Assembly (NCBI GenBank): GCA_020091685.1
Contig: CM034601.1
Span: forward strand, 1 to 64,000
Origin: Lutjanus erythropterus
Lineage: Eukaryota > Chordata > Actinopteri > Lutjaniformes > Lutjanidae
DNA length: 64,000 bases
Direction: 5' to 3'
Shown: in pieces, positions 1-28,346 of the stretch
How positions within the stretch are numbered: position 1 is the first letter of the stretch
How the letters are laid out: each line of letters begins with the position of its first letter
Notes under the pieces: model-generated
What the model saw: only the letters and a program-made list of their open reading frames with translations
Told to the model about the DNA's origin: nothing
Databases searched by the model: none
Made by a program: the position numbers and the translations under genes

Positions 1-528
1 AAAAAAAAATGTTTTTCAAAATTTGGTCACAGTTAACTGAACCTGATTTGTTAGCATTTTGTTGCCTTAAAATTAAATGTTTTTTTCTATTTAAATACAA
101 CATTTTGGGGTTTCTAAAATTCCAATATTTGAATTTATCTTAACAAGAAAAGTAAATTATCTCAACAAAAGATCAGTAGTTGGTAAACCTTTTTCAAAAC
201 TGAAGAATTTAATGTGGGCTCAAAACTGATGTACTATGTATGTAGTATGTTGGCTTGAAATTTTGAGCTGTCTCAACTTTTTCATAGACCTACAACAATG
301 AAAGATGAAAAATATTTTAAAAATATAATCTTATTAATTTCCATGTCATTTTTTGCCAAAGTGACAGGGAGCCACTGGAGAGGACCTAAAGAGCCGCATG
401 TGGCTCTGGAGCCTCAGGTTGCATACCCCTGTATTAACTTATTTTAAATTGATTTTTACCAAGTTGGTGCACGACAGGTTAAAATATCTGATGAGACATT
501 ACATTGTTGACATCAATAATAGAAGCAG
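1..528. repeat. Copy 1 of a 528-bp duplicated segment
   Basis: This segment reappears at 27819-28346 with no difference in any stretch I compared, including homopolymer lengths. The second copy ends at the first N of the assembly gap. The segment includes AT-rich DNA of a dispersed foldback family, also found diverged at 55300-55930. Near 383-432 it has the end of a hAT (Charlie-like) element, recognisable by the motif gagccgcatgtggctctgg followed by acccctg. The match may extend left of base 1, which I cannot see. Confidence 0.9.
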
Positions 529-1348
529 AAATAAAATGGCTATAGACCTAAGATTGAGGAGAGATCCATTCAAGAGACGACACAGCACTAATTATCATTA
601 AACAAAATATATATTTCAGGGTTGTCAGACAATGTAATATAATTCCAAAAATATCCCCAGATTGGCTCTATGTCTATGTGTCTATCAGTCATCCTGGTAA
701 GCATGGATACACGAGGCAGTTTTTGTTATGTAATTGACCTATTCTTTCAGTTCTTGGGGTTTAGTTGATACCAGTTCTAAGTATTGTTCATGCAGCCATA
801 ATGACCCCAGCTATAGCAATCATAAATTATTCTCTTGACATGTTATCTACTTGTGATCTGTTGTCTATAAAAGAAATTATTTGAGACACTGGCAATGTTT
901 TTGCCACTTACTCGCGTGTCGTAAAACTTTACTCCAAAATGGCTGCATGAGCAGACAGTCCCAAATATAATGTAAGAAAGTGTCTATTTCTTTCTGGCTT
1001 TCCACACTTGAGTTATTAGTTAGTAAACCCATCCTATGTAATCTGATCAGTGTCCAGTAACATATGTGACTTACTTTATACTGAGTGAATTTATGATTTA
1101 ACTGAGATGTAGAGATGTTAATGATCTGGGGTCAAAATTAACGCTTGCCAAAGTTTCATTTGCTCATATATCATTCTGTTTGTAGTTTCCTATAAATTAT
1201 TATTTTTTTGTACAATGTAAATAAAAGTAAAATTTCTTAATTAATCTGTTTAATAACCATAGTAGATATATTTTAATCCACCATCAATATTTAATGCTAT
1301 TTTTGTTTTAAAATACATATCCAGAATTTATTTTTTTTAAATACTTAC
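529..1348. other. AT-rich non-coding DNA downstream of gene A V exon
   Basis: No exon is recognised. If gene A resembles genes B and C, this is the start of the intron between its V and C2 exons, and the C2, transmembrane and tail exons would lie left of the window. Confidence 0.5.
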
Positions 1349-1846
1349 CTTGTATTTCTAGATGCATAGTGATGTTTTTCAAAAGAACACCATCATATCC
1401 ATTTTCCTCCAGTTTATAATCCCCAGAGTGTCTCTTTGTCGCGGTGCCTAGTTTGAATGTTCCATTGGGGAAGAGTTCAGGCTGTTTCACATGCCCCTCT
1501 GTAATAGTTGTCTTACCTTTTACTGTTTTTAAAATCAGCCCCTTATCATCCTTTTTCAACCTGATATCTGTATTTGATGTCCTGGGCAGATGAAAAATCA
1601 CCATCTGTCCCACTGCTCCGAAACATGGAGCTCCAGTAGGTTCAGAGAAACTGCACTCAACAGACCCTAAAAACATACAGCCCCCCCCGAAAAAAAAAAA
1701 CATCATTAATATATTATATATTGACTTCATTTTTTAAACTAAATTATTGTCTTCACAAGTTAAGTGTGGTAACTTTTGCACTAAAATGTACCTTTAGCCA
1801 GAGCTGTTGTTGCCAGAGCGGTGAAGATCATGTAGATAGAAATCAT
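1349..1846 (-). CDS. CD2/SLAM-like Ig receptor gene A, signal and V-domain exons (partial)
   Basis: Two exons are visible. The signal exon 1846-1792 starts with ATG and encodes MISIYMIFTALATTALAK plus one base, with donor G|GTACAT. The V exon 1666-1349 follows an AG acceptor, has matching phase and ends at AAG|GTAAGT. It encodes about 106 residues with the V-set signature of CD2-family receptors: a PNGTFKLG strand, then the HSGDYKLE turn, then HLEIQGK. The canonical V disulphide appears absent, as is usual for CD2-family N-terminal domains, and N-glycosylation sites (NGT, NIT) are present. Genes B and C on the same strand are paralogues. The membrane-proximal exons are not in view and should lie left of base 1. 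The role is inferred as a leukocyte cell-surface adhesion or signalling receptor; the ligand is unknown. Both exons are intact. Confidence 0.78.
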
Positions 1847-4809
1847 TGTTTTTCTGTTGTAACACAAAAATCACATGTAATTTTAAATGTTACATTTTAT
1901 TTCTATTGTATTTGTACCTATTTTCTGTAAAATTACTAAATGTGAGATTAGTTGTTAGTTTGAAATTAAAAAGTCAATTTTAATAAAATCTCTGCACAAA
2001 CCTGTTACTCACTGCCTTCACGATGGTGCGATGTCTTCTTTGTGTCTGTTTAAGGCCGACCTGTGAATTTTCCACTGACAGGTTTATGTTCGTCTTGTCT
2101 TCTTGTTGTCTGTGTATGTAATAAGAATCAAGGAAGCGGTTACTGTGTCGTCACCCACAACTTGCCAGTGAACTAAGATCTAAAATTCATTGCTTTGGTA
2201 GTTATGAACTCATTGAACATCCTAGATATGGCAGTACACAGATTAAAAATGTTGATCTAAACTGAGGTTTCTAAAACGTGAAACAACAGCAATTCAAGAA
2301 AGTGAGTATTTTCTACTGTTTTCAGTTTTAAAGCTACTACAAGTTTTTATGGTTCTTAAACAGTCTCGGTTTATTACTGATTCCTATACATGACCTACGT
2401 AAGTTAACAAGACCATCCTCAAGAAGACTGGCTATTTCTGTGTAGCTGTTCTTAATGTCTGCCACTATATTGGATTCTCCTTCCAGTCAGATTAAATGAG
2501 CGTGTTTTGACAGCAGATATTATGGGGTTGGTAATACAACCAAAACTGCAAGTATGTATGTATGTATGCTATGATGCTTCTTTTTCAAGTTTTTAACACT
2601 TATGGCCAGTATGGGTCATATACTTGGTTCATTAACACTTTCTGTAACATGTCAATTCAGTAATAGGCTATAATATAGCATTGAGCTCACAGTTGTTGGT
2701 GGTGTTTTGATGTGTTGTGTTTCTAATATCCTGCTTTGCTCAAATAGGGAGGACAAAATAATGGGAACATAGTATACAGTAGTCCAGTACAACATCTTCT
2801 AGCCATGACTCCATTAATAAACCTAGAATTTACACAGTGGTATTGAGTTACATTAGATTGTACAGATTTACATAATGAAGTGGCTACTGAGTGTAAATGC
2901 AACCTCTGATTTCTTTCATTCTACAGTACAGCTTAGCAACTCTGTGAAACAATTTTTGTGGGTTTTTAAGTTTAACAGTAATGTAAAAAACTACAGTATC
3001 ATTATAATTAATTATTATTATAATATATAAGGACAGGGGATCACATAGTTGGAGATGCAAATTATCCTGCTGACATCTTAAACATTACAAGAGTGAGGAC
3101 CTTTACACAGAGAGGAATGTGATCCCTTGTGGTCATCAAACGATTCAACATTTACTATGTTGTTTTATCACTCAGTATGGTGTAAGAGTATGTTGTAACA
3201 ACATACTATATAGCCAAACAAAAAACAAAACCACATACTACACATTACTCACAAACATCTGCATCATTGAACTTTCTCATAGGCAACACAGGTAATGTAA
3301 AATTAAACCATGTGAGTCTTTGCTTTGTTTTTGAATAGAGAGACCAAAGGAGGACATTAAAATATCTTCAGTTAAACAAAGTACCAAGCCACAAGCTAGT
3401 TTTTAATAGCCATGCAGAAAGCAACTGCTCATATAAGTGCTCACAAATCTGCAGAGCAATGAAAGCCAAAGAAAAAAAAAAAAAATCAACTATGCAGCTG
3501 TTGCAGGTGTTCAACTGTGGGTGGGGTGTGAGTTTCAATTTCAGCTGCAGATGTGTAGTGGCCAAAAGGCCTCCTACTGTAAATGTTTTGTCTTTGACAT
3601 GTGTCAAACTGACACTTATCTAATGTTAGTTTTCCTTACTAGGGTGCATAGATTTTAAGAGCACCCACTTTTGCTCATTCCTTTACACATGGTAACAGTT
3701 TGTCTGAGAAATACAGTTCTATACTACTAAGTACCTAACTGAAGAACATTTATTCATAATGATTCAGACAGGAGCTATAATTGATGGAAGCAGAAGCTGC
3801 CTTTCACATCAAAAAAACAAATGGTTCTAACACCCATGCATGGAGACCTGCTCTGCTCTTATTCATGTAACTATGTTGTAATGAGATTATAAACCTGCCG
3901 GAACATCAGAAGTGTTGTATTTCTGCAAAGGACATGCAATGAAATACCTTCTGCCTTTAATGTCCTGTATAGCCAAACTTTTTATTCAAAAACAGATACT
4001 GCACAGTACTCACAAACATCTGCGCTACTAAACTTCCTCACAGGCAACACATTTTGCAATGTATGAAATTAAACCATGCATGAGATGAGCAGTTTAAAAC
4101 CACAGTTTTTCTTTCTCTGTCTCAGCCACAGCGCCTGGTTTGAAACGTTCACAGCTCAGGAGAGACTGTGAGAACAACTGACCTGAGCCAGTTACAAAAC
4201 ATACATCTCTTTGCATACTTTTTCCTAACATAAACTTATTTTATTTTAAACACACAAGAAAGAAACAGCACCGTGCAATTAAGCAATGTTAAATTTCAAG
4301 ATATTATTTGTTATGGTTAACATCAGCCCAACTGACAAAAACCCAAAGGCACTGTAATACTTTCAGTTTAATTCTACGTGTGAATAAAAGATTATGGTTT
4401 AGATTTGCCAGTTCAGGCCTGACTTCACCTTCTTAAATTTCATATAATCACAGTTAAAATTCAGAGTCCTCTTGCATCAGTTGTGTAAAATAAAAGCTAG
4501 TCTATTAATAATTATCTCTCTGTGTATGGTGGTAAGACATCAACATGGTATTTATTAACTATTCATCCTTTACTGTCTGAAAGCAGACCGTTTGCACTAG
4601 CTCTTCTCAGAGTTCACTGCATTTGTGCAACCAGTTACAAATCCCTGGCTGTTATATTTGTAATCTTTTGGCATGCAATTGTTAAACATTTTTTCAGTGA
4701 TGACCTCCGTATAGATCTTTAAATTCATACAACATATGGCACACCATAGACACAAGATAGTAGCGCTACAAGTGAGTGCTGCTCAGCTGAGTGCTCTGAT
4801 TGTTTTTCT
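1847..4809. other. Intergenic region with a degenerate local duplication
   Basis: No gene is recognised in about 3 kb. Segments near 3195-3310 and 3963-4080 are diverged copies of each other: both carry tatagccaaac, cacaaacatctgc, a ggcaacaca stretch and aaattaaaccatg. This indicates a local duplication with a spacing of about 760 bp. Confidence 0.5.
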
Positions 4810-7245
4810 TTATGGAGCACACTGCAGCAGAAGACATGTTGCTTTCTGTGTTGTTTCCTGATTGTATTGTAGATCACAACATTTAGGTTTGTCCAGTCCT
4901 CTTTCTTTCTGCCAGTTCCTATCACTCTCCTGTCCTTGTTGACTCTGCTGCCATTTCTCTCTGTCTTTTCTCTCAGGATTGACAGTAATGCCCTCCAGTG
5001 ATGTTACTTGGCTTTCATTTTGCTTGCAAGTCCAACCTAGGAGCAAAACATGAAGTACAGGGTCAATCTTTCAGGAACAGCAAACCAGGAAGAGGTCAAT
5101 TATTGTTATAATGCAAACAACAGAAAGTAATATTACAATAGTAGGTGAGAAATTTGATAACAGTACATTTAATTTATTTGAATGACAAATGTATTTGAAA
5201 AGTTGTTTTTACCTCTTCTCTGCCTGCACAACAGGGTCACCCTGGTAATGAGGTCATCAAGGGGCTGCAGCGAGGTCATCCAAACAGGAAGAAAGTCCCA
5301 GTTCTGCAGTCTACGTGGCAAACAACCAGGCCTGTGTACCTGGAGCATGTTTACTGTTGCACCTGATATAACCACCATAATGACCGGTACGCCAATCCCA
5401 GTCATCACCCTCCACCCTGCCATGGAGAGGGCAAACACGAGGGACGGGAACAGCAGGAAGCAGAGGAGGAGGTACAAAACAGCAAACCAGCGGTACCTGT
5501 GTATATGTGATTTAATAATAGAATATTTTGATTTCCTTTGATGGTTCAGACATTTTGTTTGATGTGAGTAAAAGAGAAACTATTACTAATAGTACCTGGC
5601 AGTGCATTTGCCAAGGGCACAGGCCATACGTATAGGTAAGCGTGTGGCTGGTATGGGAAACCACAGCAGGATACCAAGGAGATTAAAGAAAAATGACATA
5701 AAGCAACCTGAAACACAAGAGGAGATAAAGGTGGAAGTAGGTTGGTACATTCTGGTACTTGGTACCTATAAAAGTGTCATGGGGTAGTTTTTAATATTTA
5801 CTTTACTGCTGCTCTTTTTCATATTGTGTGCTGTGTGTTTTTGCAGGCAGTCTTTTCTTGCAAAAATCTCCCAAGTAAAATAAGTTTTATTATGTTCAGT
5901 TTTTTTCAACAATAGGGACAGCAGGTCAAAATAAGCAAATCTTTACCCATTGAGCATCATTTAGAGACACTTTTGAATGTGTCAGCACCATAGAGAGACA
6001 GAAAGATTACCTTTGATTTTTGATTTTTGCCCCAGTGGCCAAATGTAATAATTACAGAAATAAGGACAAAGGTGTGTATATGTATTATTTCTATCACTGT
6101 TGTGTGTGTATGTATGTGTATACTTGTGTGGCAGCAGCTAGCTTATCTCCTGGACTAGCCAGGGCTGCCAGTGTAGCTGTTGTAGTGGTTCGAGGTTGGA
6201 CCCCAGGGTTAAAGGGTAGGCCCTTTCAATACTGATCACACCAATCCCTGAGGATTAAAACAAAAAGATAAACAAAACAAAGAAGAACAGGACTCAAGCT
6301 AAACATGAAAAGGATTATTATTACTACATTATTAGCTACAGTCAGGTAAAACACATGAGTAATAGACCTACTGAAAGATTTAAGATTTAATTGTAAATTG
6401 ATAACTGGTCTTTCATGGAAAATTAAGTCATGTTTCAGGTTTAAATTGAGTTTGATAACTACTCCTTGTAGTAGCTTTAAATTGTAGAGTTTGTTTGGTA
6501 TTGAACAAATATCCTATGAAAGATATTTCACAAACATGCTTAACTATTATCTGCTACACTCCTGTTAATGTTGTACCAAGCCAGCAGGAGTTGTGTATGA
6601 AACACTGAGGTGGTCATTTATTAATCGGTGAAATGGACAGAAAAGAGGAAGACGTTGCTAGAATTTACAAACAGCTTATACTAATGTATAATACATAGTA
6701 AATAACAACGAAGTAAAGATATTGTTCCCAAGTGTAGAAACATTTAGGCAAAGTTCAGTTTGGTAGGCATTATGATATTTATTATATACTGTATATGTAT
6801 TTATACATGTGTTTGTGTGTGTCTTACCTATGAGAGGAGTGATGGCAGAGGTGAAGACTGAACTACTCTGAACCAAAAGGTCATGCTGGCTCCCACTATT
6901 AGAGCCAGATAACCTGCCAGCCACGTAAATGGGAACGGAAATCTAGAGGACAGGACATAACAGGACAGTGCATGGATGTGTCCTCCTGCACATTGTCATT
7001 GTTAAAATAAAGATTCAATTTAAGATCAGTTAAGGATAATGAAAAAGCTGTGGGCTTAACTGATGTAGATTGTATATTACCTGTATTAACAACTTTATTA
7101 ATAGCACCGCCACCTGGCCCTTCAGCAGGAGTTGAGCAGTTTAACCAGCAGTATCAGACAGCTGCACAGCACCAACAGGAGCAGGCCAGGAGGATCAGAC
7201 CTATGGCCAAGTCTGACAGAGAGCAGTCCACAAAGAGATGTCTGC
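4810..7245 (-). pseudogene. slc34a1: slc34a1-like sodium-phosphate cotransporter, 3' half with frame-breaking deletions
   Basis: Six exons match the C-terminal half of the SLC34 (NaPi-II) family: 7245-7081, 6942-6828, 6247-6124, 5707-5596, 5496-5213 and terminal 5036-4810, all with GT-AG borders. Landmarks in order are LSDLAIGLILLA, KGQVAV, TDFP, the second signature [60 protein letters not shown] and [23 protein letters not shown] and [11 protein letters not shown] fit SLC34A1 better than SLC34A2. Family members import phosphate with Na+ across apical epithelial membranes. The frame can be followed only by allowing seven single-base deletions, in the four upstream exons; the two 3' exons are intact and end in a hydrophilic tail with TAA at 4812-4810. 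N-terminal exons, including the first QSSS repeat, are not found to the right. It is either a decayed gene or a good gene with uncorrected consensus indels. Confidence 0.85.
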
Positions 7246-7458
7246 CTGGGCAGAGAGACAGATATGTGACGTGTAATGAGGATTTAATGTAGAGACCAAG
7301 ATTGTTGAAATGAGAAACTAAATTTAACTTGCAAAATAATTATCAGTGTGGTTAATTTGCAGTGCATTTGATGATTGATGCTAAATTGATTGAAGTTAAA
7401 TTTAATGATGAAAACACATTAAGTAGAAGGAAAAATGTCTGACAGAGGATGAAGATGG

Positions 7459-7593
7459 TTAGTTGACCTCAAGACTGCAGTGGTGACTGGGAATGTCAGC
7501 CGCAAAGATGGCGCTGGCACAGAGCAGGAAGAGAACAATTTGCTCAAAACGTCCTAAATGGCCCAGAAAGACTGTAGCGTCGTAATCATTCAT
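7459..7593 (-). pseudogene. slc22-like N-terminal fragment
   Basis: A 44-codon frame from ATG at 7593 to TAA at 7461-7459 begins MNDYDATVFLGHLGRFEQIV and continues through LFLLCASAI to PSHHC. This is the N-terminal cytoplasmic start and first membrane helix of SLC22 organic cation/carnitine transporters, whose usual pattern is M-x-D-Y-D, F-L-G, G-x-F and later HHC/HRC. The family's segment between the helix and the HHC motif, about ten residues, is missing, and the frame stops soon after. It lies opposite in orientation to the other slc22 fragments at 8283-8440 and 9428-9543, so an inversion has occurred or two copies are represented. I read it as a relic. Confidence 0.6.
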
Positions 7594-8282
7594 GAGCTCA
7601 GAATTCTCCTCAAACGCTACTGTCTTCTCTGATGTCTTCCTGCGAATGTGTCTTATTTACAGTGCACAAATGCACAGTCGACTATGCCCTATGTACAGTG
7701 CAGGTGATCTCAGTAGATATATTATGGCTTCAAAGAATAAAAAAATGGCTTCATGTCAACATCCGATAAAGGTATATCACTATACCACTGTCAGTAAACT
7801 GCTGTTTTCTGATAGTACTGTGTACTATCAGACATGTACATGTACATGCTATAGTCCTCATTTGATGCTCCAAAATCAAAACAATTTTAGTAAGCGAGCA
7901 TCAAACCAGTTTGATTTTTAAATGGCCATCAGTTCAGTTCAATACAATTCAGCTCTGTAACGATACAATATGATACAATACGATATGATGCAATACAAAA
8001 CAATGCAATGTGTGAATCTTTACATTTTGATTCAATTAATGCTACATTTGTGGAGAGGTATTAAAAAGAAATCCTGATAGTTTTATGAAATATAGTAACA
8101 GTAGAGACAGAGTGAAGGAGACGTTACAGTGGTGTTAACATCTTATTATGAGTCTCATGTGTAAATGAGATACTGTAGCCTAAATGAGAATCTGTGAACA
8201 AACTTTAAAACTGTTTAAAATATTAGTATTTTTGCAGTAAGATGCTGTGCTGCTCTGTTTCATATGAAGGTGGTTTTGATTA
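7594..8282. other. Non-coding DNA between slc22 fragments
   Basis: No coding sequence is recognised. There is a low-complexity run of gatacaata-type units around 7955-8010. Confidence 0.4.
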
Positions 8283-8440
8283 GTGTTGGGGAACAGTGAT
8301 GCTCCGTGTTACCTCCTTTTCTCATCACTGGCTGTGTGTCTGTGTTTTGCCATTGGCTACATGACTTTAAGGGACTTGAAATTTCCCCTGCTGGCTGTGG
8401 CTCTGCCTGGCCTGCTCTACACCCCCTCTTTTGGTGGGTT
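8283..8440 (+). pseudogene. slc22-like mid-protein fragment
   Basis: The plus-strand frame contains CFAIGYM, RDLKFPLLAVALPGLLYTP and then, in a shifted frame, FWWVVFI. This corresponds to the SLC22 region (A-I-G-Y-M, R-D-W-K/R, L-A-V-A-L-P-G-L-L, L-W-W-F/L-I-P) just before the PESPRW motif. Relative to the family, the segment between GYM and RD is deleted and the frame shifts after YTPS. With the fragment at 9428-9543 it forms a plus-strand remnant of one degraded gene. Confidence 0.6.
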
Positions 8441-9427
8441 GTATTTATCATATCACATTACATTAAATGCTTCACATTGCTCATGGTAGAGTTTCAGCCA
8501 CAGTAGCATCTTGTTTTGTCAGTGTTGAGAGCAGTGTTAAAGGAAAGTTCTTTATTATAATTGTTCTTACCAACACAAAAAAAAGCTCCTTAAAAAATAG
8601 AAGCATGGTCAAAAAGGTGTTATATAATCACACCCTGAATTTATGATTTAGCTTTGTGAAATTGTCAACTGAACAAATAGTCAATGTATAAAAAGAAAAT
8701 TACATAAGTAAAAATAAAATTTGAATGGAATGAAATATAGAATAATATGGAATTAATTCATAAGGAAAAATGTTTAAACAAGGCAAAATTTGTTTTATAT
8801 TTTAGATTCTTAATAATCTTCACTAGATATGCAACAATGAATTGATTAATAATCAGTTATTAAATTGATTAATTTAATAATTGACTATCAGTCAATTATT
8901 AGATTAATCATAAACTCTTTTGATAAAGAACAGGCCTTGAATGACAAATGTGTCCAAACTTTTGACCACATAACCCTAACTCTAATCCTACCAACCCTTG
9001 ACTGGTGTGTCCAAACTTTGTACTGTGTGTATGTACATATCCACACGATCACTATCTTGTTGCTGCTGTTTACATTCAACAAGATGCAAATTCTGAAAAT
9101 GCGGTGCATATGTGTATAAATGTAGATATTTTATTTTGTTTTATATTATATCCCATTTTATTTTGAATTTAATTATATATTGGTTGTAGCATGACGGACT
9201 TCAGACTGACGTCTAAATTAGTTGCGTAAAACTGTCAAGTTCTTAAACTTTTTAAGTGGCACTAATTTGCCACCACTTTAGACAAATTACTCACTCCAGC
9301 AGAAATGTTTGTCATGTTTGCTTTGCATTAGAAAAGTCTAAAAGCCAAAATCAGACTGGCCTAAGACTACAGACCAGTCTTAAGTATCTTTGTGAAACCA
9401 GCCACTGAACCTGTCTGTCTCTGTGTT
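8441..9427. other. AT-rich repeat-like DNA between slc22 fragments
   Basis: It contains gattaat-rich stretches typical of teleost hAT MITE remnants (8826-8915) and two copies of a tgtgtccaaactt motif (8950 and 9007). No exon is seen. Confidence 0.4.
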
Positions 9428-9543
9428 GAATGCTGAGTCTCCGTGGTGGTTCCTCTCTCAGGGGTGACTGGAGGATGCTAAGGAGATGGTGAGAAATGCT
9501 GCCAAGAAGAACAAAGTAGAGGCCCCACAGATCATCTTTCAAC
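9428..9543 (+). pseudogene. slc22-like PESPRW-region exon with an in-frame stop
   Basis: The plus-strand reading gives NAESPWWFLSQG, stop, LEDAKEMVRNAAKKNKVEAP and IIFQ. This is the conserved SLC22 loop after helix 6 (PESPRWL-SQGR-EEA...). Two changes mark it as dead: the conserved arginine of ESPRW is tryptophan, and the arginine codon after SQG is TGA, as expected from C-to-T change at a CpG in CGA. Order and orientation fit the fragment at 8283-8440. No further slc22 exons were recognised downstream. Confidence 0.65.
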
Positions 9544-12376
9544 ACTACATTGTAAATTTAACCAATAGGTGCGCATTTTTTCAAGTCTGCCTTAAAACAA
9601 CAGCCGAGTATTAATATGTACATTGAAACAGGTTTTACTTGCTAGTGACATTCCTCCTGTTCATACTGGCTGTAACAATATTCCCTCCTAATGCTTTTGC
9701 AATGCAAGTGATGGGGGCAGAACACAGTCCTCGTTTTGGGTAAAAATGCAGACTTAAAGTTTTTCTGAAGCTAATGTCAGGTTTCCTCAGTCTGAGTTTG
9801 GCAAGTTAAGTTGTTATCTTCCAAAGTAATTTTTTTAAATAGCTCCACTGCAGCTGAGCAAGGATATACTGCTGGGAGAAACATGTGAAGATGGGATCTT
9901 TCAATAGTCACTATGAACAGGAGGAAAGGATTAAAATATTTCAGAGATTTTATAATTTCTTATTTAAAATTGTCCAAAGCATATGAACAAAAACGCAGGA
10001 AGTTGAGTGAGGTTTTGTATCTTGCAGGTTGATGAGAGAAAGACACTAAAGAAGACTAGAAAGACACTACAGTGTCTTTGACCCAATAAGAACCAGCAAC
10101 ATCAGAGCCACAAAACTTACTCTTTGCTTGTTGTGGTGAGTCTGAGAATTTATTACACATTATTACACATATTATATTAGGGATGCACCAATATTGATCC
10201 CAGCACCGGGTATCAGTTACCACTAATGACTGCAGTGACATGCTGCAAAATACTGTCCAATTTAAACTGCCAGCCTGTGTTTCTCTTTGGCAACAGTCCA
10301 TATAAAACTGAAATAAATTCAGTTGCAACTGTAGACCGCAGCTGCTGTTCAATAAGTCGTGCCAGCGTAAGCTTGTTGAATGCTTTGGAAAATTAATCTG
10401 AAGACAAAGAAAAAAGAAACATTGCTGCCACAGGTCTGTAAGTCTCTTTTTTGATTGGTCTTTATTCTCTGTTAATCTTGAGCAAAACAGCATGACTGTA
10501 CAGTACACCTAACGTGAAGAAACAACTTAAATATTACACATGCCAATGTATAATTAAAATAATAGTTAAAGTGCTGCAAGTGTTAATGAAATAATAATTG
10601 TAGTTAAATGTAAATTTAATTCTGCAGCTACATAATTATGTTGTGGAGTTATTCCTTCTGAAATATATAATTTACACAGTAAACTGCACAGCTTAATAAG
10701 GAACATAAAATTAACACTTAATACAAATAATCCGAAAATGTAAGTGTACACTAACCATGGTTACAATAGCAACGGGAAACAGCAACAACAATTTGTTACA
10801 TTTAGAAAGTGTGGAACATCTGATGACAGTAAAACATGTTTTGAATTAATTGTAAGAGCTGCAGTTTATTGCATTATTTAGTACTCCTATTGCCACTCAG
10901 TATTCGCAAGTACCCAAATCTAAGTACTTGTACTGAGAAAAAGTGGTAGCAGTGCATACCCACTATTAGGGATGCACTGCTACCAGTCCAAGTATTTAGA
11001 TGAATGAAGCAGTGGCAAAGGAGTTTTATTTAAAACAAAAAAAAAACTGGCAGCTCAGACTCTCAATTGGAAATTGGAATCAATATCTGTCAGAGATAGA
11101 AAGACTGCCAACTAAACTATGGTTTCTCAAACTTGAAACAATAATATAACATGGCCTTTATTTAACAAGGAAGTCATATTGAGATAAAACCTCCATTAGA
11201 AGTGAGACTTCCAAAAAAGGGTCGCAGTGTCCTACATCTTCAGTTTTAACACTGGATTATCTTCTGATGTGTGTTGTGTGAATGGTTACATTTTCACTAA
11301 ACACTTTCCAAATGGAGTTTCACCATATTAATTGGAAGATTATAACCAAAAGTCTAAGTATGTATTATCCACTATGAAACAAATTTAAATTATGGGCATT
11401 TACCTGTGCTTCTGGTGTTTTCTGCAGCGGGGCCTAATATGAAGACGCCCCCGAACGTTTAGAGGTTCTAAATGCTTGTAAAAATGACACATATAATGAC
11501 AAATTAGGCTACATGTAATACACATGCAAAGGTAATCACTTGGTGCACCTGTTGTTGATGAGTTGATTGACACTTACTGTTGGTGAAAAGATAAAAGGAC
11601 TCAACCGTGAAAGTGGAGGACAGCTGGAAAATCTGTTGTAAATTTAGCGCTGACTAGAGTGAACAGTCTGTCTGGATATGCAAACTCTTTTTTTTTTTTT
11701 TTTTTTTTTTGTTATAGAACATATAATTCAAAAAAAATGTGCCTGGGGTGATTTTGAAATAATGCCATCATGTAGTTTGTCCAGCAGAGCGCGCTCCAAC
11801 TCTGCTGTCAACAACAAGGTGTTGATTAGATGTAATGCTGACATACATGCAAATAGGAAACGCAACAATCTGAAAAAGAAACACATTGTTTGGATTTTCT
11901 CCAGTATTTGCGATAGGTTGTTGCTTTATTCTTGTTACTATACAGATATAGCTTCTTTTTAATGTAGAATACAGTGTGCAGTTTGACTTTGATGACCTCT
12001 GTGATACTTACTGTAGTCATGATGGATGACCCACTCCACCACAGCAGCTCACTGAAACTGGGTTATAGTGTATGTGGGATTTAAGTCTAACAAAATATCC
12101 TTGGCCCAGGTTTTCTGGTATCAGAGACATGGCTTACTTGTAACTGGGGTGAATCCCCATGGTATCCCATGCTGCATAAACACCTTGCTCTGGTGCAGGT
12201 TAACTTCAGAGGATTAAAAGATGTCAGCAGGCCGACAACTGAGCAACTACTGTCAGGTTGAATATGTATTCATGGGAGAAACTAAAATTGTTGACATATA
12301 CTAGCCATACATGGCTTCTGCAGTTCATTAAAGAGATTTAACATGCTGAAACCTGCAGAAACCCTATAATGGATAG
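9544..12376. other. Intergenic, hAT-like remnants, no gene recognised
   Basis: Around 10178-10970 there is a degraded hAT-type element with tagggatgcacc at its left and gtactt-rich DNA plus ggtagcagtgcat at its right. A perfect hairpin lies at 10944-10985. A run of about 21 T sits at 11690. The longest open frame (10056-10508, minus) shows no family resemblance. Confidence 0.4.
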
Positions 12377-12691: not shown

Positions 12692-12873
12692 CTGATTTTC
12701 ATTCAGTTTCATCTCTACTCTCTTATCTAACAATATGAGGGAGGAGGGATGGGAGGAGTGGGGCAAAGACATCAGTCCTCTATATAACTCTATATTGCGT
12801 CGAATGCTTCAAAACTCTCAAGTAATTATTCCACAGCCACACAGAAGCCAACAACACTTTAATTGCTATGCAG

Positions 12874-17900: not shown

Positions 17901-19131
17901 TGTAAGCATCCAAAATAAAACTAGGATGTTTGGAAAATGTGTTAAAAATTAACACTGGGAAATACTTTTAAAAATTGACATTTTCATAGGGGCTAATAAT
18001 TTCGTCCTCATCTTGTATTTTTCTATATTAAGTACAATATTGAATATATTTGCAGCATTTGTATAAATATGACATCTGTGTTTATATTTACATACGATAT
18101 AGAAAATTGCTGTTTAAAAATAACTACAAGTATCAAAGTTCTAAGATTTATATTATAGATGTTTTATTTTGTAATTAAATTTAATAACCGATAAGTACCA
18201 CATTTTAATAGTTATATAGTTCTTAATTTAAATATCAGTTTATTTAATCAGTGTTTAAGTTTACAACACATTTTTAATGGCTGGTTTCTAGAACAAAGAA
18301 ACATTTCTATAATTGTAACTTCTACCTCATAAAATATCCTACCTTGTATTTCCAGATGTATGTTGACTTCAAGCAGCTGTATACCATCAGAACGAAATGT
18401 TTGAAGCTCATAATCTCCAGAGTCTGTCTTCTGTGCATTATTCAGCTTGAATGTTCCATTGGTGAAGAATGCAGAAGCGATTGATGTAGTCCGCATGTAT
18501 ATGCACTGTTTCCTTCTTTTTGCGTAAAATCTGAGATTTCTTAATCTTTTCAAAAATAGTATTGTTACATCTGTAGGTAGATGAAAAGTCACTTCCTCAC
18601 CAAGCGCTCGAAACATTGTTGAGCTGCTGTAGTCCAGATAAATTGCATTCCATAGTCCTGATAGGAACAAGAACATCAAATGTTTTTAAAACAATCCTAC
18701 ACACAAAATAACATTTCATTTCAGTAGGGAAGAAAAACATAACCGACCATTTCCATTTACAAGTATAGAAATTAATAAATATCCTTTGACTATATATTCT
18801 AAAATTTTCCCTGTACCGTTGATGAGCAAAAATGTAGTCGTAGATTAACTGTGAATATATGTTCAACCAGTGTTATCAGTGATATGCATTTATCATGTAG
18901 GTAATAGCATAGTTGGCATTAGATATTTGATTAGGATTTCAGTTGTTTGCAAATTAAGAAAATGATAGCAAATTACTAAGGAACCGTATAATGTCACTGC
19001 TTTTTAACCTGATATACTGTTTTTGTTTATTGGTTAACACACAATACTATTAACTACACAATTACCACGAAGTGTACCTTTGCCAGAGCCACTGGGACCA
19101 GAGCTGCGATGATCATGTAGATGGAAATCAT
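14965..19131 (-). pseudogene. CD2/SLAM-like Ig receptor gene B, five exons, frame broken
   Basis: The exon order is signal 19131-19078 (MISIYMIIAALVPVALAK), V domain 18657-18343, C2 domain 16107-15791, transmembrane 15480-15357, and tail 15056-14965 ending TAG. All have GT-AG borders. The V exon is open and ends HLEIQG like gene A. The C2 exon has PEQMNISCSS and ISIHGQLTGNLM, then a TAA stop where the intact paralogue C has the conserved cysteine. It also needs one-base correction before PEQM. The signal exon is one base shorter than gene A's, so its phase no longer fits the V exon. The transmembrane exon shifts frame inside its hydrophobic stretch. The tail encodes EIIYSDVKV, an ITIM-like I-x-Y-x-x-V. 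A Tc1 element occupies the V-C2 intron. It is most likely a pseudogene; consensus errors could account for the indels but less easily for the TAA. Confidence 0.75.
16590..18015 (+). mobile_element. Tc1-like transposon, degraded, in gene B intron
   Basis: The terminal repeats begin cagttgaggacaaaattatt and end with the near complement aataatttcgtcctcatcttg. They are bounded by TA dinucleotides at 16588-16589 and 18016-18017. The interior carries plus-strand transposase remnants: KIVDAHKAGGGYTKLSQCFQ (helix-turn-helix DNA-binding part) from about 16880, then frameshifted catalytic-domain pieces through 17700. It cannot encode an intact DDE transposase. Confidence 0.88.
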
Positions 19132-19359
19132 TTTCTTTTATACGATCAAATTATCTGAAAAACATGATAAATTTCACATGTAAGCAAAACAATCAACAAA
19201 TTAAAAGCTATTTAGTTCCTTGGTTTTAGTTTAAGTTAAAACATGGAGTCCACCATGGATTACGTCCATGGTGGACTGCAGTTATGGGACACTGTTATTC
19301 CCTTTTGAGTGGCAAGGACTTGATACAAATGTTTCCATCGCCACTATGGTGACAGCGAT
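19132..19359. other. Upstream of gene B, with a perfect hairpin at 19247-19277
   Basis: AGTCCACCATGGA at 19247-19259 and its exact reverse complement at 19265-19277 are separated by five bases (13-bp stem). The hairpin lies close to the left edge of a Gypsy remnant and may be linked to an old insertion. No coding sequence is seen. Confidence 0.7.
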
Positions 19360-20190
19360 ATGCTGGTGCCTGTAAATGTGTTCCCAGGCAGGCTCGTTGA
19401 CCAGCTCCTGACTTTGTGGGCTACTTAGCACCCAACCTCCAGAGTAAAAGTGAGTGTATAGTGGCTTACTCACTGACATCAGTAAAAAATGGAGTTACAA
19501 CAGTTTGTGTTTTAAACCCAACAGATCAGGACATTATACTGAGGGCATGCACCTGGGGATTTTCTCTGTGGATGAGTCTGAGCTTGTGCCTCCACAGGTC
19601 CCAGTTGAGACTGTCTCTGCCATTTCATCCACTGATGTGCCTGTTGTGTTGCTGGAGGAGTCTCCAGCTAGTCAGCAACAGAAGGCACAATTGGCTGCAT
19701 CGCTAGCACAATACAAGGAGATATTCAGCACGTTAAAGGGCTGACTGGCAAATGCACATTCATCAAACATCACATCAAAATGCTGGACATCCTCCTGCTA
19801 CAGCATGTATGCGAACCTCGCCAGAGAGAGAGGAAATAGACAGGCAAGTGGCAGCCCTGTTAAGTGGCAGGGTATTTGAGGAGAGCTGCAGCCCATGGGC
19901 CTTGCCTGTCATCCTGGTATAGAAAAAGAATGGTGAGTGAAGGTTCTGTATTGACTCCTGTCACTTAAACAGCATATCAGTAAAGACCGTCATCCTTTTC
20001 AGGGTGGATAATACCTTGAATACCTTAGTGGGGACCCTGTGGTTTAGCATGTTAGATTTCTCTAACGGCTACTGGCAGGTTGAGTCGCTGAAGAAGACAG
20101 AGAAAACAGCCTTCACAACAGGCAAAGGCCTATACCATTGGCGGTCAATGCCCATGGGCCTCACCAACTCACCTGTGACAAAAACCATTT
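19360..20190 (+). mobile_element. Ty3/Gypsy LTR retrotransposon fragment
   Basis: Broken plus-strand frames show a reverse-transcriptase N-terminal region: SPWALPVILV, a frameshifted FCIDSCHLN, then WFSMLDFSNGYWQVE, EKTAFTTGKGLY and PMGLTNSPVT. This is the order found in Gypsy Pol. The frame breaks at several stops, the catalytic YxDD region is absent, and no LTRs are recognisable. It is a dead 5' part of a pol gene. Confidence 0.78.
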
Positions 20191-20659
20191 CAAATTTGGA
20201 TTAAATCTGATTTCTAATATTTTTATGCTTACAATTATGTACATACGACTGTAGTGGGTTTGGGTTTACAGAGCTTTGAGGTGTGCTTCTGTTCAGGGTA
20301 AAATGTCTCATTTTCATGAAGAATATTAATCCCTAGAATGTAGCCCTCTACCTGCATGCCACAGTAAAGCATGTTAACTTTAATATGTTTAAACATGTAT
20401 CATGGTAATGACAGTATAGCAACATCTTTTTTTATGGGTGTCACCAGTATACCATCCACCTAATTAAAACATATAATCAGTTATACATTTGTTATTCACA
20501 CGTTAATAATGTAATTAAACATATAAAAATACTGAATCATTTCCATACAGCTTTTGAACACTAGTACTTTCCCTTCATTTTGTCATCAAATCTGAGTGTT
20601 TTACCCCCATGAAATAAACATTTTATCTGTATATTTCACTTAACTAGACTGCAGACATA
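20191..20659. other. Non-coding AT-rich DNA
   Basis: Nothing is recognised between the Gypsy fragment and the next Tc1 element. Confidence 0.4.
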
Positions 20660-22263
20660 CAGTATCTCACAAAAGTGAGTACATCCCTCACATTTCGAAA
20701 AATATTTAATTATATCTTTTCATGGACAACACTGAGGAAATGACATTTTGATACAATGTAAAGTAGTCGGTGTACAGCTTGTATAACAGTGTAAATTTAC
20801 TGTCCCCTCAAAATAACTCAACACACAGCCATTAATGTCTAAACTGCTGGCAACAAAAGTGAGCACACCCCTAGGTGAAAATGTCCAAATTGGGCCCAAA
20901 GTGTCAATATTTTGTGCCCACCATTATTTTCAGCACTGCCTTAACCCTCTTGGGTGTGGAGTTCTGGGAGCTTCACAGGTTGCCACTGGAATCCTCTTCC
21001 ACTCCTCCATGATGACATCACGGGGCTGATGGATGTTAGAGACCACGCTCCTCCACCTTCCGTTTGAAGATGCCCCACAGAGGCTCAATAGGGTTTAGTT
21101 CTGGAGACATGCTTGGCCAGTCCATCACCTTTACCCTCAGCTTCTTTAGCAAGGCAGTGGTTGTCTTGGAAGTGTGTTGGGGTCGTTAACATGTTGGCAT
21201 ACTGCCCTGCAGCCCAGTTTCCGAAGGAGGATCATGCTCTGCTTCAGTATGTCACAGTACATGTTGGCATTCATGGTTCCTCAATGAACTGTAGCTCCTC
21301 AGTGCCGGCAGCACTCAGCATGCAGCAGAACCATGACACTCCCACCACCATGGACTGTAGGCAAGACACTTGTCTTTGTACTCCTCACCTGGTTGCCGCC
21401 ACACACGCTTGACACCATCTGAACCAAATAAGTTTATCTTGGTCTCATCAGACCACAGGGCATGGCTCAGTAATCCATGTCCTTAGTCTGCTTGTCTTTA
21501 GCAAACTGTTTGCGGGCTTTCCGTGCATCATCTTTAGAAGAGCTTCCTTCTGGGGCGACAGCCATGCAGACCAATGTGATGCAGTGTGGCGTATGATCTG
21601 AGCACTGACAGGCTGACCCCCACCTTCAACCTCTGCAGCAATGCTGGCAGCACTCATACATCTATTTTTTTATATTAAGACAACCTCTGGATATGGCGCT
21701 GAGCACGTGCACTCAACTTTAGTCAACCATGGTGAGGCCTGTTCTGAGTGGAACCTGTCCTGTTAAACCGCTGTATGGTCTTGGCCACGCGCTGCAGCTC
21801 AGTTTCAGGGTGTTGGCAATATTCTTATAGCTAAGGCCATGTTTATGTAGAGCAACAATTCTTTTTCAGATCCTCAGAGTTCTTTGCCATGAGGTGCCAT
21901 GTTGAACTTCCAGTGACCAGTATGAGAGAGTGTGAGAGTGATAACACCAAATTTAACACACTTGTTCCCCATTCACACCTGAGGCCTTAACACTAACGAG
22001 TCAAATTACACTGGGGAGGAAAAATGGCTAATTGGGCCCAGTCGGACATTTTCACCAAGTGTACTCACTTTTTGCCAGCGGTTTAGCCATTAATGGCTGT
22101 GTGTTGAGTTATTTTGAGAGGACAGTAAATTTACACTGTTATACAAGCTGTACACCAACTACTTTACATTGTATCAGTGTCATTTCTTCAGTGTTGTCCC
22201 ATGAAAAGATATAATTGAATATTTGCAGAAATGTGAGAGTGTACTCACTTTTATAAAGTTGTG
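20660..22263 (-). mobile_element. Tc1-like transposon with long inverted terminal repeats
   Basis: The left end, cagtatctcacaaaagtgag, begins an arm of about 220 bp (20660-20880). Its complement occupies about 22040-22263 and includes gtactcacttt, catgaaaagatataatt and ttacactgttatacaagctg. The interior encodes, on the minus strand, frameshifted Tc1 transposase pieces including the catalytic C-terminal stretch whose reverse strand reads ctcaatagggtttagttctg (the SPELNPIE block). The ends have diverged and the coding region is broken in several places, so the copy is inactive. Confidence 0.85.
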
Positions 22264-25188
22264 TGAGGATGAGGACAGGATACTACAAAGAAATAAGCAC
22301 TTCCTGCCTCTCAGTATGTAATCACACAGTAAAACCATGTACTCTACATCATGCTGATACTTTGCACCACTTGTTAGAGGAAACTAAGCGGAAATAACAA
22401 CTTGACAACAAGTGTCTAAGCTGGTCATCAAAACAGGAATGGAAAAAAATGTGAACCACAACTTTTCCGTCCTCAGTCTGCTCCTGCCACAGAGACCCAG
22501 CCCAATACACAGGGTGTGTACTGTATGTTGAATTTGCAAAGACTAAAATATCAAGATAGAAAGATATCTATAGAGAGAGATGTAGTCATGCTGTGGTAAG
22601 TGTAGGATCTTGCTGGGAATCAACTCGGTGAATTCAAAAGAAGCTTAAGAAATTTCAGTTATGACTTAATACTCAATGCTCTTCTCAAATTATCAAGTAT
22701 GCCAAGAGGTCCATTCACCAATAACAACGGGTCATGTGGCCAGGCTCAAAACTCTCACAGGAGCATCTCATTTCACCTCTGGTATAAAGAGACAAAATTG
22801 ATAAGAATATATATAAATCTGCAAAATTGGAGTTAAATTTTGTTTGCACCCTGTGGACCCAAACACTGTGAAAATGTATTGAGTACAGAAATTAAACTTT
22901 TAAGATGGGATTTTGATATTTGCAGGGTTCTTGTCGATTATTGAAAATCCTTAAACACTTAATATTTAATGTAACATTTTCAAGGTTTGAAAATGCTTAG
23001 ACTTTGGATAAAGTGCTTGAAACTGCTTGAAATTATGATGACATTTCTTTCCTCTAAACCATTGTCTAACAGAATGATTTATTTTGTAGATAAATACAAT
23101 CAGTCAAAGTGCCATGCTTTTGTCTGAAAATGAAAATGACTCTGCTCAAGCCTGCTTGCCACTCTGCATGTGGTTCTGCATGGTGTGATCTGTCAGTCTT
23201 TTTTGATGTTTGCTGTCTGATGGAAGAGTGAGTGGGAGGCTGCTAAGTGGTTTGCTGTTTGAAAGTGTTATATAGAATGCTGTGTCTATTTGTCAGCCTT
23301 CTGTAGAATGCTATAAAGAAACATAATTTTGGTTGTATGTAGTACAATAATGTGATGAAGTGAAATAAGTAAAAAGCTTGAAAGTGCAGTTTGAAAATGC
23401 TTCAGAAGTGCTTGAATCTGAATCCTATCTTCTGACACTGTGCATGAAGTCTGTAGATGATAGTAGGGGGGCTTGAATGCTGAGAACACAGTTCACATGT
23501 GGCCCAAATAGACTGTCACAGTTGGTCCTGACTCATAATGTGAGTGGAGCTGAGTGGATGCTAACATGATGTGACAGCTGGTATGAAAACATGTTTGTCA
23601 TGTCTCAAGTAAACAGCCACACTAAAATGGAGGAAGTTATCATAAATTCTTTTTTAAACTCATGATCATTGTTGAGTAACACATGAGGACTTTTGGCTCC
23701 ATCTTGTGGAAAAAATGATCCCCACATTGCTTCCAATTTGTACTTCAAGCTCTCTGGTAGTACCTGAAAGAGCAGTGTACAACCTCAAGATGTTAACCAT
23801 TAGCCTCACTTTTAAAAGCAAATCATCAAATTTCAGACTAAAATGTAAAAAATGTACTGCATTAGAAAAAAGGGTTTGTGTTAGTATGTGGCTACAGGTA
23901 CCTTTAAGAAAAAGAAATGCAGTCCAGGAAAGCCAGTTTGATGTTATTATTATATTTATCACACATTTTTTATGTTATTTTAAAATACTTTGAATCTCTG
24001 TTTATGTAAAAAGCAGCAATACACGATTGTTCAAATTCAATCAGAGTTGGGTGTTTTTGGCAGAGTCCATGTTGGCACCCCTGCTCCTGCAAAACAATGG
24101 CCCTCTTGAAATGAATGCTTTATGAGTTGAATGACTGACATGAGGGAGTGATGTGGTGTTTGATAGAAAAATGTATAAAAATGCTTACAGTGAGAGGCAT
24201 GTATCAGTAGGATGCTGGTGCTGAGTTGGGGTTATTTGTTATTTATATATAAAATGTGTTATTTGTTGATACTTTCAGAAGCCACTTGTGCTTTGTGTAC
24301 CAGGACCTGCACCAGGGCAGACAGTTTTACCTGCTTCTATTAAAGCAGCCATCAAGTTGTGCCAAGTCCTTCTCTCTGTCATTTTTCATTGAAGACATTT
24401 TTTTTCCCACAACAGTCAGAGACATAACAAGTGGAAATAGTGATATACACTAATCCTGTATTTACACTAAACAGCCATTCTAAAATGGGAAAAAATGGCA
24501 GATCAAGTGTGTATTGTTTCATGACCATCACGCAATTACATGTCAGGAACTTTGGTTTCATCTTGTGGTTACAAAAAAAAAATGTTGCATTGCCTACAGC
24601 TTGTACTTCCTTCTGTCACTAACAGCAAGAACAGGTTGCTGTCACTCAGTTACACAATTTAAAGTAGAATTATTGTGCAAAGACAACTTGTTTGAACCTA
24701 AACAACTTCTATTTGTTCTCTTTGACCCTGGTTTGATGAGAAAAAAAAAAACAGATGAAAGTCAATTACAATATGTTGTACGTTTATTGAAAAAAATGTA
24801 AGTTAAAAAACAAATTGACTTATGTTTTAAAATTTGTCAAGAGTGCCACATAATCACAAGACATGTAACAGAAAATAACATCACATATAAGCATGGCTAT
24901 TTTCGGGAAACAAATGGACAAATGTATGAATTCTTAAAAAAAACCTCAACAATTTCACAATTTTGAAATGGTAGCTCAAAACTTAAGATAAAATAAAACT
25001 AAGCTGAGTTCATTGTGATAACAGTTCATAAAGCTCCAGTCTGCAGGTGGAAGTTATTTTCACAATTTATTTTCAAGCCACAAAGACAGTGATAATTGAT
25101 GAAATTTTAATATCTCAAGGGTTATTCAGGTTTCCCCAAGATTAACTTGAGGGTTCAAAATATAGCTGGCGGTTGTTTTAGGAGAAAG
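22264..25188. other. Intergenic between genes B and C, with a local duplication
   Basis: No exon is recognised. Segments at about 23610-23760 and 24465-24620 are diverged copies of one another: both have aaacagcca and ctaaaatgg, a tttggnttcatcttgtgg core and cttgtacttc. A tttatt at 24783-24788 reads AATAAA on the minus strand, about 400 bp after the gene C stop, and is a plausible poly(A) signal for it. Confidence 0.45.
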
Positions 25189-26757
25189 TTATGTTGCATT
25201 CTGGTGGGAGCTGGGTCTGTTTTTCCTCCTGTGTTTTATCACTCTAACATCTGCGTAGACAACCTCAGAGGTAACTGGAAAAATTAAAAACAGATGTGAA
25301 ATGTGTTTTTTAGTGGTAATCTATGACAGAGGATATAACGTTTTGTTTATAACCCTTTACAAACAAGTCTTCCAAAACAATTTTCATGGTATGCGCATAT
25401 TAAATAAATGCTTTGTAAGAGCTATGAAAAATGAGGAAAGAAGTTATCCAAACATCTTTAAACCTACAATAACTGTTTGTGAGTATGGTCTTTATTAAGA
25501 CAGATGGGACATGTGAGGCGATTTATACTTACCATCATTAACAGTCGCGGGTCTTGATTTGTTTAGTTTTGTTATAGCAAGACACAGACCCACAGTGAGA
25601 AGGACTGTGACAACACTAGCTATGACACACACAGTCACAGTCATAACAGGGAAGGAATAAAAACCTAGAAAACACAAATAATATGCCATATTAGATAGTG
25701 ATAGTGACATTGATATTTCAATTTCATTATTTTGTCATCCAGGTGTTCTGCATAAAGTTATGTGTACAGTTGTATACAGATGTGTAATTAGTAAAAACAA
25801 AATCAAAATTATAACAAGGACAATTTGAGGTCCCAGATGGTAGACCAAGCAGGGCACGTCTGCGCCACAGTTCTGACCTGTCCTCCACACGGCTGCAAGC
25901 CCCACCAGCAGCGTTTCAGAAGCATTTCAGCAGTGCAGCGGTTTGCCCGCCTGATTATGTTTATTTGCTCAGATTTTATTGATTATGTCCTCTTCCCTTC
26001 CTCTTTGTCTTTCTATCATGGATAAGTAGGCTATGTGGTAAAATAGTTTCTTTTCTGTCTGTTTTTTATGATTGTGAGTCTGCATGGGGTCTTTCATTTT
26101 GAAAATGAACTCCCTGTTCCTTTTCTGTGTCTGACTTCCTGGCCGTTCGTTATGCTCTGTGCTAATTGACACGGCATCCATCAAAAACAGTTTTGCCGTG
26201 TATTTGAAACAGAGTGGAGCAGAGAGCTGCATCTGGGACAGACCGAGGCACTGCTGGTGGGCTCACAAGCATTGTGTAGAATCGCTGTGATCAGCTCTGG
26301 CTGATGTGGCACAGCTGTAATGCAACGCAGCCATGCCTGGTGGAATTTTCTTAACAAATGTATGAAATAAAAAATTTGAGAAGCTCCCCAAAAATCATTG
26401 ATAATCTATTGAGTGTATGATAAAATTTGATTATTTGCTAGCCTTTTGGCAGGTGAAAACAATGCAAAGAGCTGATATTTAGAAAAGAAAACGGGTGTCC
26501 TTTAAACATTTTACCTTTGCAGCTTGTCAGGTGAATAACTGTTTCATCTCTGCTGACATTGTTCCAAACAAGACACATTAAGTTTCCTGTCAACTGCCCA
26601 TGTAAGCTGATGGTAACATTTGAAAGACTGGTCTTCATCAGTAAAAGATCATCCAGAGTCAACTTGAACTCGACTCTATCACCCTCAGAGGAGCAGCTGA
26701 TGTTCATCTGTTCTGGTGACGAACACATCTGAGAAACCAGTGGCTTTGACACTGGAG
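25189..26757 (-). CDS. CD2/SLAM-like Ig receptor gene C, C2, transmembrane and tail exons (partial)
   Basis: Three in-frame exons have GT-AG borders: C2 domain 26757-26515, transmembrane 25664-25533 and tail 25274-25189 (TAA). The C2 exon has four cysteines in the contexts QMCSS, NISCSS, NLMCLVW and LTSCKG. These fit the two disulphides of CD2-family membrane-proximal domains, and NNVS and NIS are glycosylation sites. The next exon has a single hydrophobic helix (VMTVTVCVIASVVTVLLTVG) and a basic stop-transfer region. The tail carries EVVYADVRV, an ITIM-like V-x-Y-x-x-V, then a basic end. Compared with gene B, about 25 residues before ISLHGQLTGN are missing from the C2 domain. No V or signal exon lies between 26758 and the gap; they are expected within or beyond it. 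It is inferred to be an inhibitory-type leukocyte receptor. Confidence 0.78.
25855..26225. mobile_element. hAT fragment related to the element at 12874-13880
   Basis: The order of blocks caccagcagcgtttcag, gcccgcctgattatgtttat, gattatgtcctcttccc, ctatcatggataag and tgattgtgagtctgcatggg parallels 13310-13490 of the intact copy. It sits in the C2-transmembrane intron of gene C. Clear termini were not found. Confidence 0.65.
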
Positions 26758-27818
26758 CTAGAAGACAAACAAAGTAACATTTGTCTAGAATACAAAATGT
26801 AAAGTAAAATTCTAGTCATAATCTATTCCAATTTCCAATGTGATTGTTAAAAAACTTTCAGGGTTAAAACTGTTCAGGAACTGTTCCAGCTTTTTCATTA
26901 ATAAGATAGTTATGTGTGTGTCAGAGGACACAAGTCCACCAGCCACCAGTCAAATGCTGGTAAAATATGCAAGTGGTTGGTAGTTTTGCTTCACTTACCA
27001 GCCAAAACAAAAAAAAAAACAATGGTAATCTATTTAATGGCAGGTAAAATTTTAACATTGACTAGCAATTTGAAAAAAGTTATTTTACACCCCGGTGTAT
27101 AGAAATTTATGACTAAACTTATGTCTCTGTGCAGGCGACAGCTGTGCCCGGAGGCATTATGTTATCAGTTTGTCCGTCTGTCCCCGTCTCATGAGTGCAT
27201 TATCTTAAGAACGCTTTGATGGAATTTCTTTGAACATAGTACACATGTCCAAGTGGACTCAAGGATTAACTGATTAGATTTTGGTGGTCCAAGTTCATGG
27301 TCACTGTGACCTCATATCTGTCCCATTCACATGAACACAATATCTAAGGAACGCCTGATGGAAATTTCTTCAAATTATGACATGATGACAATTTATACCC
27401 AAATAATAAACTTCACTGTGACATCATAATGGTCAGCTCTCTATCAGTACTCCTAATCTAAAAATAAAAATAGTAAAATAAAAATAGTCTCTAAGTGAAA
27501 TACTTCTACTGGAATCAAACAAAAAATCTGTCTGGAGCTGCATCTATTAAATGCTCTCTTTTCCCTGAAGACTTTTTTGGCAGCCATAGCTTATGGAGAC
27601 TCAAGAAGATGAGCCACCATCACAATTTAGAGGAAAAAACACAGAACCATAGACACAATCTTTGATGCATAAAATTTGGTATACAACATACTGAAATAGA
27701 TTTTTGAGTTTTGTGCCCAACTCAAACTTTAACAAACTTTCTGCTGACCTTTAATTGAGATAATTTACTATTCTTCCTCAGATAAATTCATAGTAAAAGT
27801 TAAAGTTAGAGAAACTCA
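26758..27818. other. Intronic or upstream DNA of gene C
   Basis: No Ig exon is found. From about 27700 the sequence resembles the dispersed foldback family at 55300-55930 (cttt-aattgagataatttact and, in reverse, agaaaagtaaattatctcaac). A block around 27120-27360 contains a partly repeated motif (agaacgctttgatggaattt and aggaacgcctgatggaaatt). Confidence 0.5.
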
Positions 27819-28346
27819 AAAAAAAAATGTTTTTCAAAATTTGGTCACAGTTAACTGAACCTGATTTGTTAGCATTTTGTTGCCTTAAAATTAAATGTTT
27901 TTTTCTATTTAAATACAACATTTTGGGGTTTCTAAAATTCCAATATTTGAATTTATCTTAACAAGAAAAGTAAATTATCTCAACAAAAGATCAGTAGTTG
28001 GTAAACCTTTTTCAAAACTGAAGAATTTAATGTGGGCTCAAAACTGATGTACTATGTATGTAGTATGTTGGCTTGAAATTTTGAGCTGTCTCAACTTTTT
28101 CATAGACCTACAACAATGAAAGATGAAAAATATTTTAAAAATATAATCTTATTAATTTCCATGTCATTTTTTGCCAAAGTGACAGGGAGCCACTGGAGAG
28201 GACCTAAAGAGCCGCATGTGGCTCTGGAGCCTCAGGTTGCATACCCCTGTATTAACTTATTTTAAATTGATTTTTACCAAGTTGGTGCACGACAGGTTAA
28301 AATATCTGATGAGACATTACATTGTTGACATCAATAATAGAAGCAG
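27819..28346. repeat. Copy 2 of the 528-bp duplicated segment, abutting the gap
   Basis: It matches 1-528 at a constant offset of 27818 and ends at the last base before the N run. In copy 1 the sequence continues to a V exon 820 bp further on. In copy 2 that continuation is lost in the gap. Confidence 0.92.

Follow-up and report, generated by a model that had tools for sequence, protein, structure and literature searches.

The first 28,346 bases of scaffold C11 are probably a self-closing contig, which represents one 27,818-bp unit of a tandemly duplicated CD2/SLAM-like receptor locus and has been misplaced at the start of the chromosome, where two apparent receptor genes, A and C, would be the separated halves of a single gene. 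The window, that is, the whole stretch of DNA that was analysed, covers positions 1 to 64,000 of this scaffold, which contains 40,645,435 bases in a genome of 937.6 Mb and 444 sequences, the size, chromosome number, and gene content of which suggest a fish. Base 1 is the first base of the scaffold, with nothing to its left in the assembly, and the piece 1-28346 is one whole contig, both ends of which have the same sequence. At face value, the assembly places two truncated receptor genes at the end of a chromosome, with broken-frame receptor genes at 15.65 Mb on the same chromosome. Reinterpreted, the same data would represent an intact CD2-like gene and, very probably, a tandem duplication at an immune locus.

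The ends of the contig

The overlap between the two ends, and the gap that follows it, are arranged as follows:

1..528, terminal overlap, first copy; start of the contig and of scaffold C11, with approximately 2-431 formed by a dispersed repeat
27819..28346, terminal overlap, second copy; ends at the gap
28347..28846, assembly gap of 500 N

The initial annotation had noted that bases 1-528 equal 27819-28346 at a constant offset, and that the second copy extends as far as the first N. Both observations were confirmed, given that the two copies are identical over 528/528 bases, with no mismatches at an offset of 27,818, and that the second copy stops at 28346, the last base before the run of N, which begins at 28347. 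The whole 528 bp is recovered by a blastn self-comparison of the window, and a repeat scan, which takes 300 of the 528 bases as the reference copy for this pair, returned two families of direct repeats of at least 100 bases in the window, these being the 528-bp pair and an array of short units at 57-63 kb. Such arrays occupy 57226-57543 and 63017-63162.

A dispersed repeat accounts for approximately 431 of the 528 bases, and when the overlap was searched against the genome, 37 of the 41 matches listed (from the best 40 of 2822 candidates scored) were dispersed copies of 86-90% identity. As the copies listed reach only this level of identity, two copies without a single mismatch are not accounted for by separate insertions of this element. 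An origin of the duplicate from a dispersed repeat or LTR was rejected, as the repeat leaves 97 of the 528 bases uncovered, and none of these 37 copies is more than 90% alike.

The absence of differences can also be assessed by comparison with the homologous stretch at 15.66 Mb, from which the 528 bp differ, when aligned together with their flanks, by 10 substitutions and nine indel events. At this level of divergence, the Poisson probability of zero differences is approximately 5e-5 for the substitutions alone and approximately 6e-9 when the indels are included, of which the former is the safer figure, because the 15.66-Mb consensus that provides the rate seems to carry indel errors. An alignment without the flanks gives 14 substitutions, a count inflated by a misaligned end, and seven indel events, and the odds do not depend on the choice between the two alignments.

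The sequences C1-C24 are megabases long, judging from their lengths or from the positions of matches, while the 20 sequences sampled from C25-C444 are of 10-31 kb. An exact overlap of the ends was found in none of these 20 sequences, beyond a single 46-base TG run, which indicates that self-closing contigs are not habitual in this assembly and counts against the self-closing explanation. One of the 20, C110, has imperfect matches (74-96%) between its own ends.

The homologous locus at 15.65 Mb

A second copy of the unit is found on the same chromosome, at C11:15,649,372-15,669,663, without N, and the surrounding stretch that was read (C11:15,610,001-15,730,000) is also free of N. The correspondence between the contig and this copy is as follows:

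529..7455, forward strand, right half of the unit; colinear with C11:15662878-15669663
11709..28346, forward strand, left half of the unit; colinear in blocks with C11:15649372-15662877
11709..12873, forward strand, block matching C11:15649372-15650485
13881..14418 and 14600..16589, forward strand, blocks matching C11:15650478-15652992
18037..19241, forward strand, block matching C11:15653022-15654081
22277..27283, forward strand, block matching C11:15657118-15661957
27543..28346 and then 529..692, forward strand, block matching C11:15662086-15663068
812..7455, forward strand, block matching C11:15663057-15669663
7456..11708, junction stretch from the right end of the unit to its left end; no other copy found apart from a dispersed repeat of approximately 400 bp
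12874..13880, hAT-like insertion; 8-bp target duplication CTATGCAG, this site being empty in the 15.65-Mb copy

At 15.65 Mb, the homologue of 11709-28346 leads directly into the homologue of 529-7455 on one strand, and the alignment continues through the join between 28346 and 529, with a single 3-base gap no more than eight bases from it. The contig is a circular permutation of this chromosomal copy. A self-closing contig is recognised by identical ends and by a homologous locus in which the end is joined to the start, and both were found here. One of the two explanations offered by the initial annotation, that 28346 really joins 529, is borne out by this order at 15.65-15.67 Mb. The other, in which near-identical tandem units could not be crossed by the assembler, is compatible with the join, and the link from 7455 to 11709 needs either a tandem copy or a circle. 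Within this explanation, the exact tandem structure is the weaker part, as nothing more than repeat-like pieces corresponds to the junction stretch (7456-11708) beside the 15.65-Mb copy. A search of the assembly with 7400-11800 recovered, besides the query itself, only the dispersed repeat and a 45-base self-match.

No alignment with the 15.65-Mb copy was found for 16590-18036 or 19242-22276. These stretches contain, respectively, a Tc1-like fragment (16747-17094), in which the Pfam HTH_SB domain is just over the cut-off, and a reverse-transcriptase fragment (19941-20204), in which RVT_1 is just under it. The insertion at 12874-13880 has hAT-like ends, a perfect target duplication, and a BED-finger stretch just under the Pfam cut-off. 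As this insertion is present in the contig and its site is empty at 15.65 Mb, the contig is not simply the 15.65-Mb sequence assembled twice. A further stretch, at 25917-26204, is 80% alike to the insertion.

The divergence between the two copies varies considerably along the unit, with substitution rates of 1.6% (812-7455), 1.8% (27543-28346), 2.1% (11709-12873), 4.7% (22277-27283), 7.5% (13881-16589), 8.9% (529-692), and 21% (18037-19241). The gaps are more numerous in the 15.65-Mb copy than in the contig in six of these seven blocks, the exception being 529-692 (three versus six).

The receptor gene and its neighbour

The exons of the joined gene, together with the recognisable parts of a neighbouring paralogue, gene B, are as follows:

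1792..1846, reverse strand, signal-peptide exon (gene A half); signal judged by eye
1349..1666, reverse strand, V-domain exon (gene A half)
26515..26757, reverse strand, C2-domain exon (gene C half)
25533..25664, reverse strand, transmembrane exon (gene C half); transmembrane segment judged by eye
25189..25274, reverse strand, tail exon with the stop codon (gene C half); one tyrosine motif, VVYADV
18344..18640, reverse strand, V-domain stretch of gene B; limits of the match, not of the exon
15789..16108, reverse strand, C2 stretch of gene B; shows a frame change and a stop codon when compared with gene C
14965..15180, reverse strand, open frame of gene B with a tail stretch, IIYSDV

The exons were found to be split as first described, with the V and signal exons at 1349-1846 and the C2, transmembrane, and tail exons at 25189-26757, all on the reverse strand, and a tblastn search with two V domains returned no V between 26757 and the gap, in agreement with the claim that gene C has no V exon. 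Across the closed unit, the five exons have AG/GT internal borders and give a single reading frame of 277 codons, from ATG to TAA. The same five exons recur at C11:15659905-15664061, on one strand and with their order preserved, the signal exon there being a 25-base match only. This frame and the shared order uphold the proposal that A and C are halves of a single gene. As the exons share one phase, the phase alone does not prove which V is paired with which C2, and the pairing in the joined gene is drawn from the order and neighbourhood at 15.65 Mb.

The joined V and C2 domains match CD2 structures in phmmer searches (1hnf_A, E 4.9e-5, residues 13-184 of 186; 1hng_A, E 5e-5), which we take to be human and rat CD2, respectively. 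These matches span both domains, over 172 and 164 residues, and the V+C2 ectodomain that is typical of a receptor of the CD2/SLAM family is recognised here through the match to 1hnf_A. Pfam returned nothing above its cut-offs, with a single sub-threshold ig match (E 0.07), and no match to the complete 277-aa product at E up to 0.1. Judging from its similarity to CD2, the intact protein would act on the surface of leukocytes as a receptor of the CD2/SLAM kind, and, by its sequence, it is an ordinary member of the CD2 kind.

The exons at 15.65 Mb provide an indication of the quality of that consensus. The C2 exon matches in 241 of 243 columns, with two gap columns, and the transmembrane exon in 131 of 132, with one, and neither contains a substitution. 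The V exon matches in 293 of 324 columns (20 gap columns), the tail in 73 of 82 (five gap columns), and the signal exon in 25 of 55 bases. With three gap columns and no substitutions in the C2 and transmembrane exons, the 15.65-Mb copy looks under-polished, and its broken frames may be errors of the consensus, resulting, for example, from the mixing of reads of two copies. A pseudogene locus at 15.65 Mb was also considered, and is disfavoured, as differences restricted to indels in the C2 and transmembrane exons fit consensus error better than decay. The V exon and gene B also truly differ between the contig and this copy. Beside the receptor locus, three mutually similar open frames of 140-167 aa, chosen by eye, are found at C11:15703698-15722110. 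Pfam returned nothing in any of the three, and the one that was compared with TIGR00898, a cation transport family, matched it in part, at E 2e-22, under the full-length cut-off.

The block that holds the V exon of gene B (18037-19241) is the one that differs by 21% in substitutions from the 15.65-Mb copy, the other six blocks differing by 1.6-8.9%. This divergence possibly reflects the diversification of the V exon or a mixed consensus. A broader interpretation, which is rather doubtful, would be a copy-number-variable tandem array of two-gene CD2-like units, in which the V exons diverge far faster than their flanks and individuals differ in the number of receptors and in their ligand-binding domains, with one unit having been caught as a loop.

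Placement, alternative origins, and known systems

The contig would have arisen through the tandem duplication of a stretch of the receptor locus, which is the likely cause of the duplicate, with the other copy being that at C11:15.65-15.67 Mb. The assembler would then have closed the 27,818-bp unit on itself, presumably through a loop in the graph, a step that goes beyond the observed overlap of the ends and the permutation. As the home slot at 15.65 Mb was already filled and free of gaps, the scaffolder may have been unable to insert the contig, which would then have been set at the start of the chromosome with 500 N. A scaffolder that sees contacts with C11 and no gap at 15.65 Mb may place a contig at the end in this way. 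The likely home of the contig is a locus approximately 15.6 Mb away on the same chromosome, and A and C would be the two parts of one receptor gene, the five exons of which encode the signal, V, C2, and transmembrane segments and a tail that has a single tyrosine motif.

A variant of this explanation, and not a competitor that excludes it, is an alternative haplotype, in which one homologue carries one unit, at 15.65 Mb, and the other carries two or more, the surplus being kept as a contig. This would be a false duplication of the heterotype kind, combined with a real difference in copy number, and it deserves serious consideration, even if the balance of probability is somewhat against it. 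Only two copies were found, as no third copy of either 812-5000 or 24000-27500 was recovered, apart from short dispersed-repeat matches, among the best 40 candidates scored for each query, a procedure that makes the copy counts lower bounds. The presence and absence of the hAT-like insertion, and substitution rates that range from 1.6% to 21% among the blocks, are also consistent with two haplotypes. Gaps between the duplicated pairs and small scaffolds are, in addition, among the marks of false duplication described in PMC9516828. A single-copy allele, by itself, cannot yield a circular permutation.

The contig might instead be a linear slice of a true tandem array, beginning midway through one unit, crossing 7456-11708, and ending midway through the next, with its ends being two recently identical copies of the 528 bp, and the exons of A and C belonging to two neighbouring similar genes. 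Assemblers stop at identical repeats, and the link from the right end of the unit to its left end requires a tandem neighbour or a circle. This origin is, however, improbable, as the 528 bp contain no differences, in contrast with the 10 substitutions and nine indel events in the other known copy, and the same searches, with the best 40 candidates scored each, found no third copy of either half.

The assembly itself places the unit at the tip of the chromosome, where it could represent a transposed copy of the locus. This location is very unlikely, given that the contig closes on itself and that no match to the V, C2, or transmembrane exons is found between the gap and C11:104000 (tblastn, E up to 0.01). 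The matches of 28847-64000 to C11:15.61-15.73 Mb are all short (162-421 bases), and C11:64001-104000 has no DNA match of more than 150 bases to 1-28346. Just past the gap, two degenerate CCCTAA-like motifs (28879-28890 and 28918-28929) hint weakly at a true chromosome end near 28847. When the first 600 bases of 19 other chromosomes were read, C16 gave N, and no telomere array stood at the beginning of any of the remaining 18, so that the absence of telomere repeats from the start of this scaffold is uninformative. Isolated motifs were present in these first 600 bases in C15 (three CCCTAA), C20 (one CCCTAA), and C6 (one TTAGGG).

A 27.8-kb circle of extrachromosomal DNA, derived by excision from the receptor locus and assembled in that form, would account for the circular permutation relative to the chromosomal copy, but is the least credible origin, as the insertions and substitutions indicate that it was not cut from the assembled copy, many molecules would be needed for its assembly, and nothing favours a circle over a tandem unit.

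The gene family is an ordinary one, and the case is useful primarily as a warning on genome assembly. Counts of receptor genes or of breakpoints in this genome would be misled by the sequence as it stands, and cases of this kind would be detected by examining the contigs at both ends of every scaffold for terminal overlaps.

The order of the joined gene (signal, V, C2, transmembrane, and tail) is like that of the CD2/SLAM receptors, which include CD2, CD58, CD48, and SLAMF, and the zebrafish Cd2 and Cd58, as described in PMC5990624. The product of the C2 exon has four cysteines, as does the zebrafish Cd2 in a figure legend of the same paper. In contrast with these receptors, the tail is short, with a single VVYADV motif that lacks the threonine at position Y-2, and a strict ITSM, the mark of the SLAM subfamily, the consensus of which is given as TxYxxV/I/L in PMC3958483, is absent from this tail. 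The PPLPRPR motif, which is named for the mammalian CD2 in PMC5990624, is also absent from the tail of the joined gene, in contrast with the mammalian protein.

The contig itself is like the false duplications described in PMC9516828, in that a gap separates the pair on one scaffold (28347-28846, with the other copy at 15.65 Mb on the same C11), the contig is small, and a gene is broken or counted twice. Unlike those false duplications, the contig is circularly permuted and has its own terminal overlap, which points to a tandem junction, or a circle, behind it.
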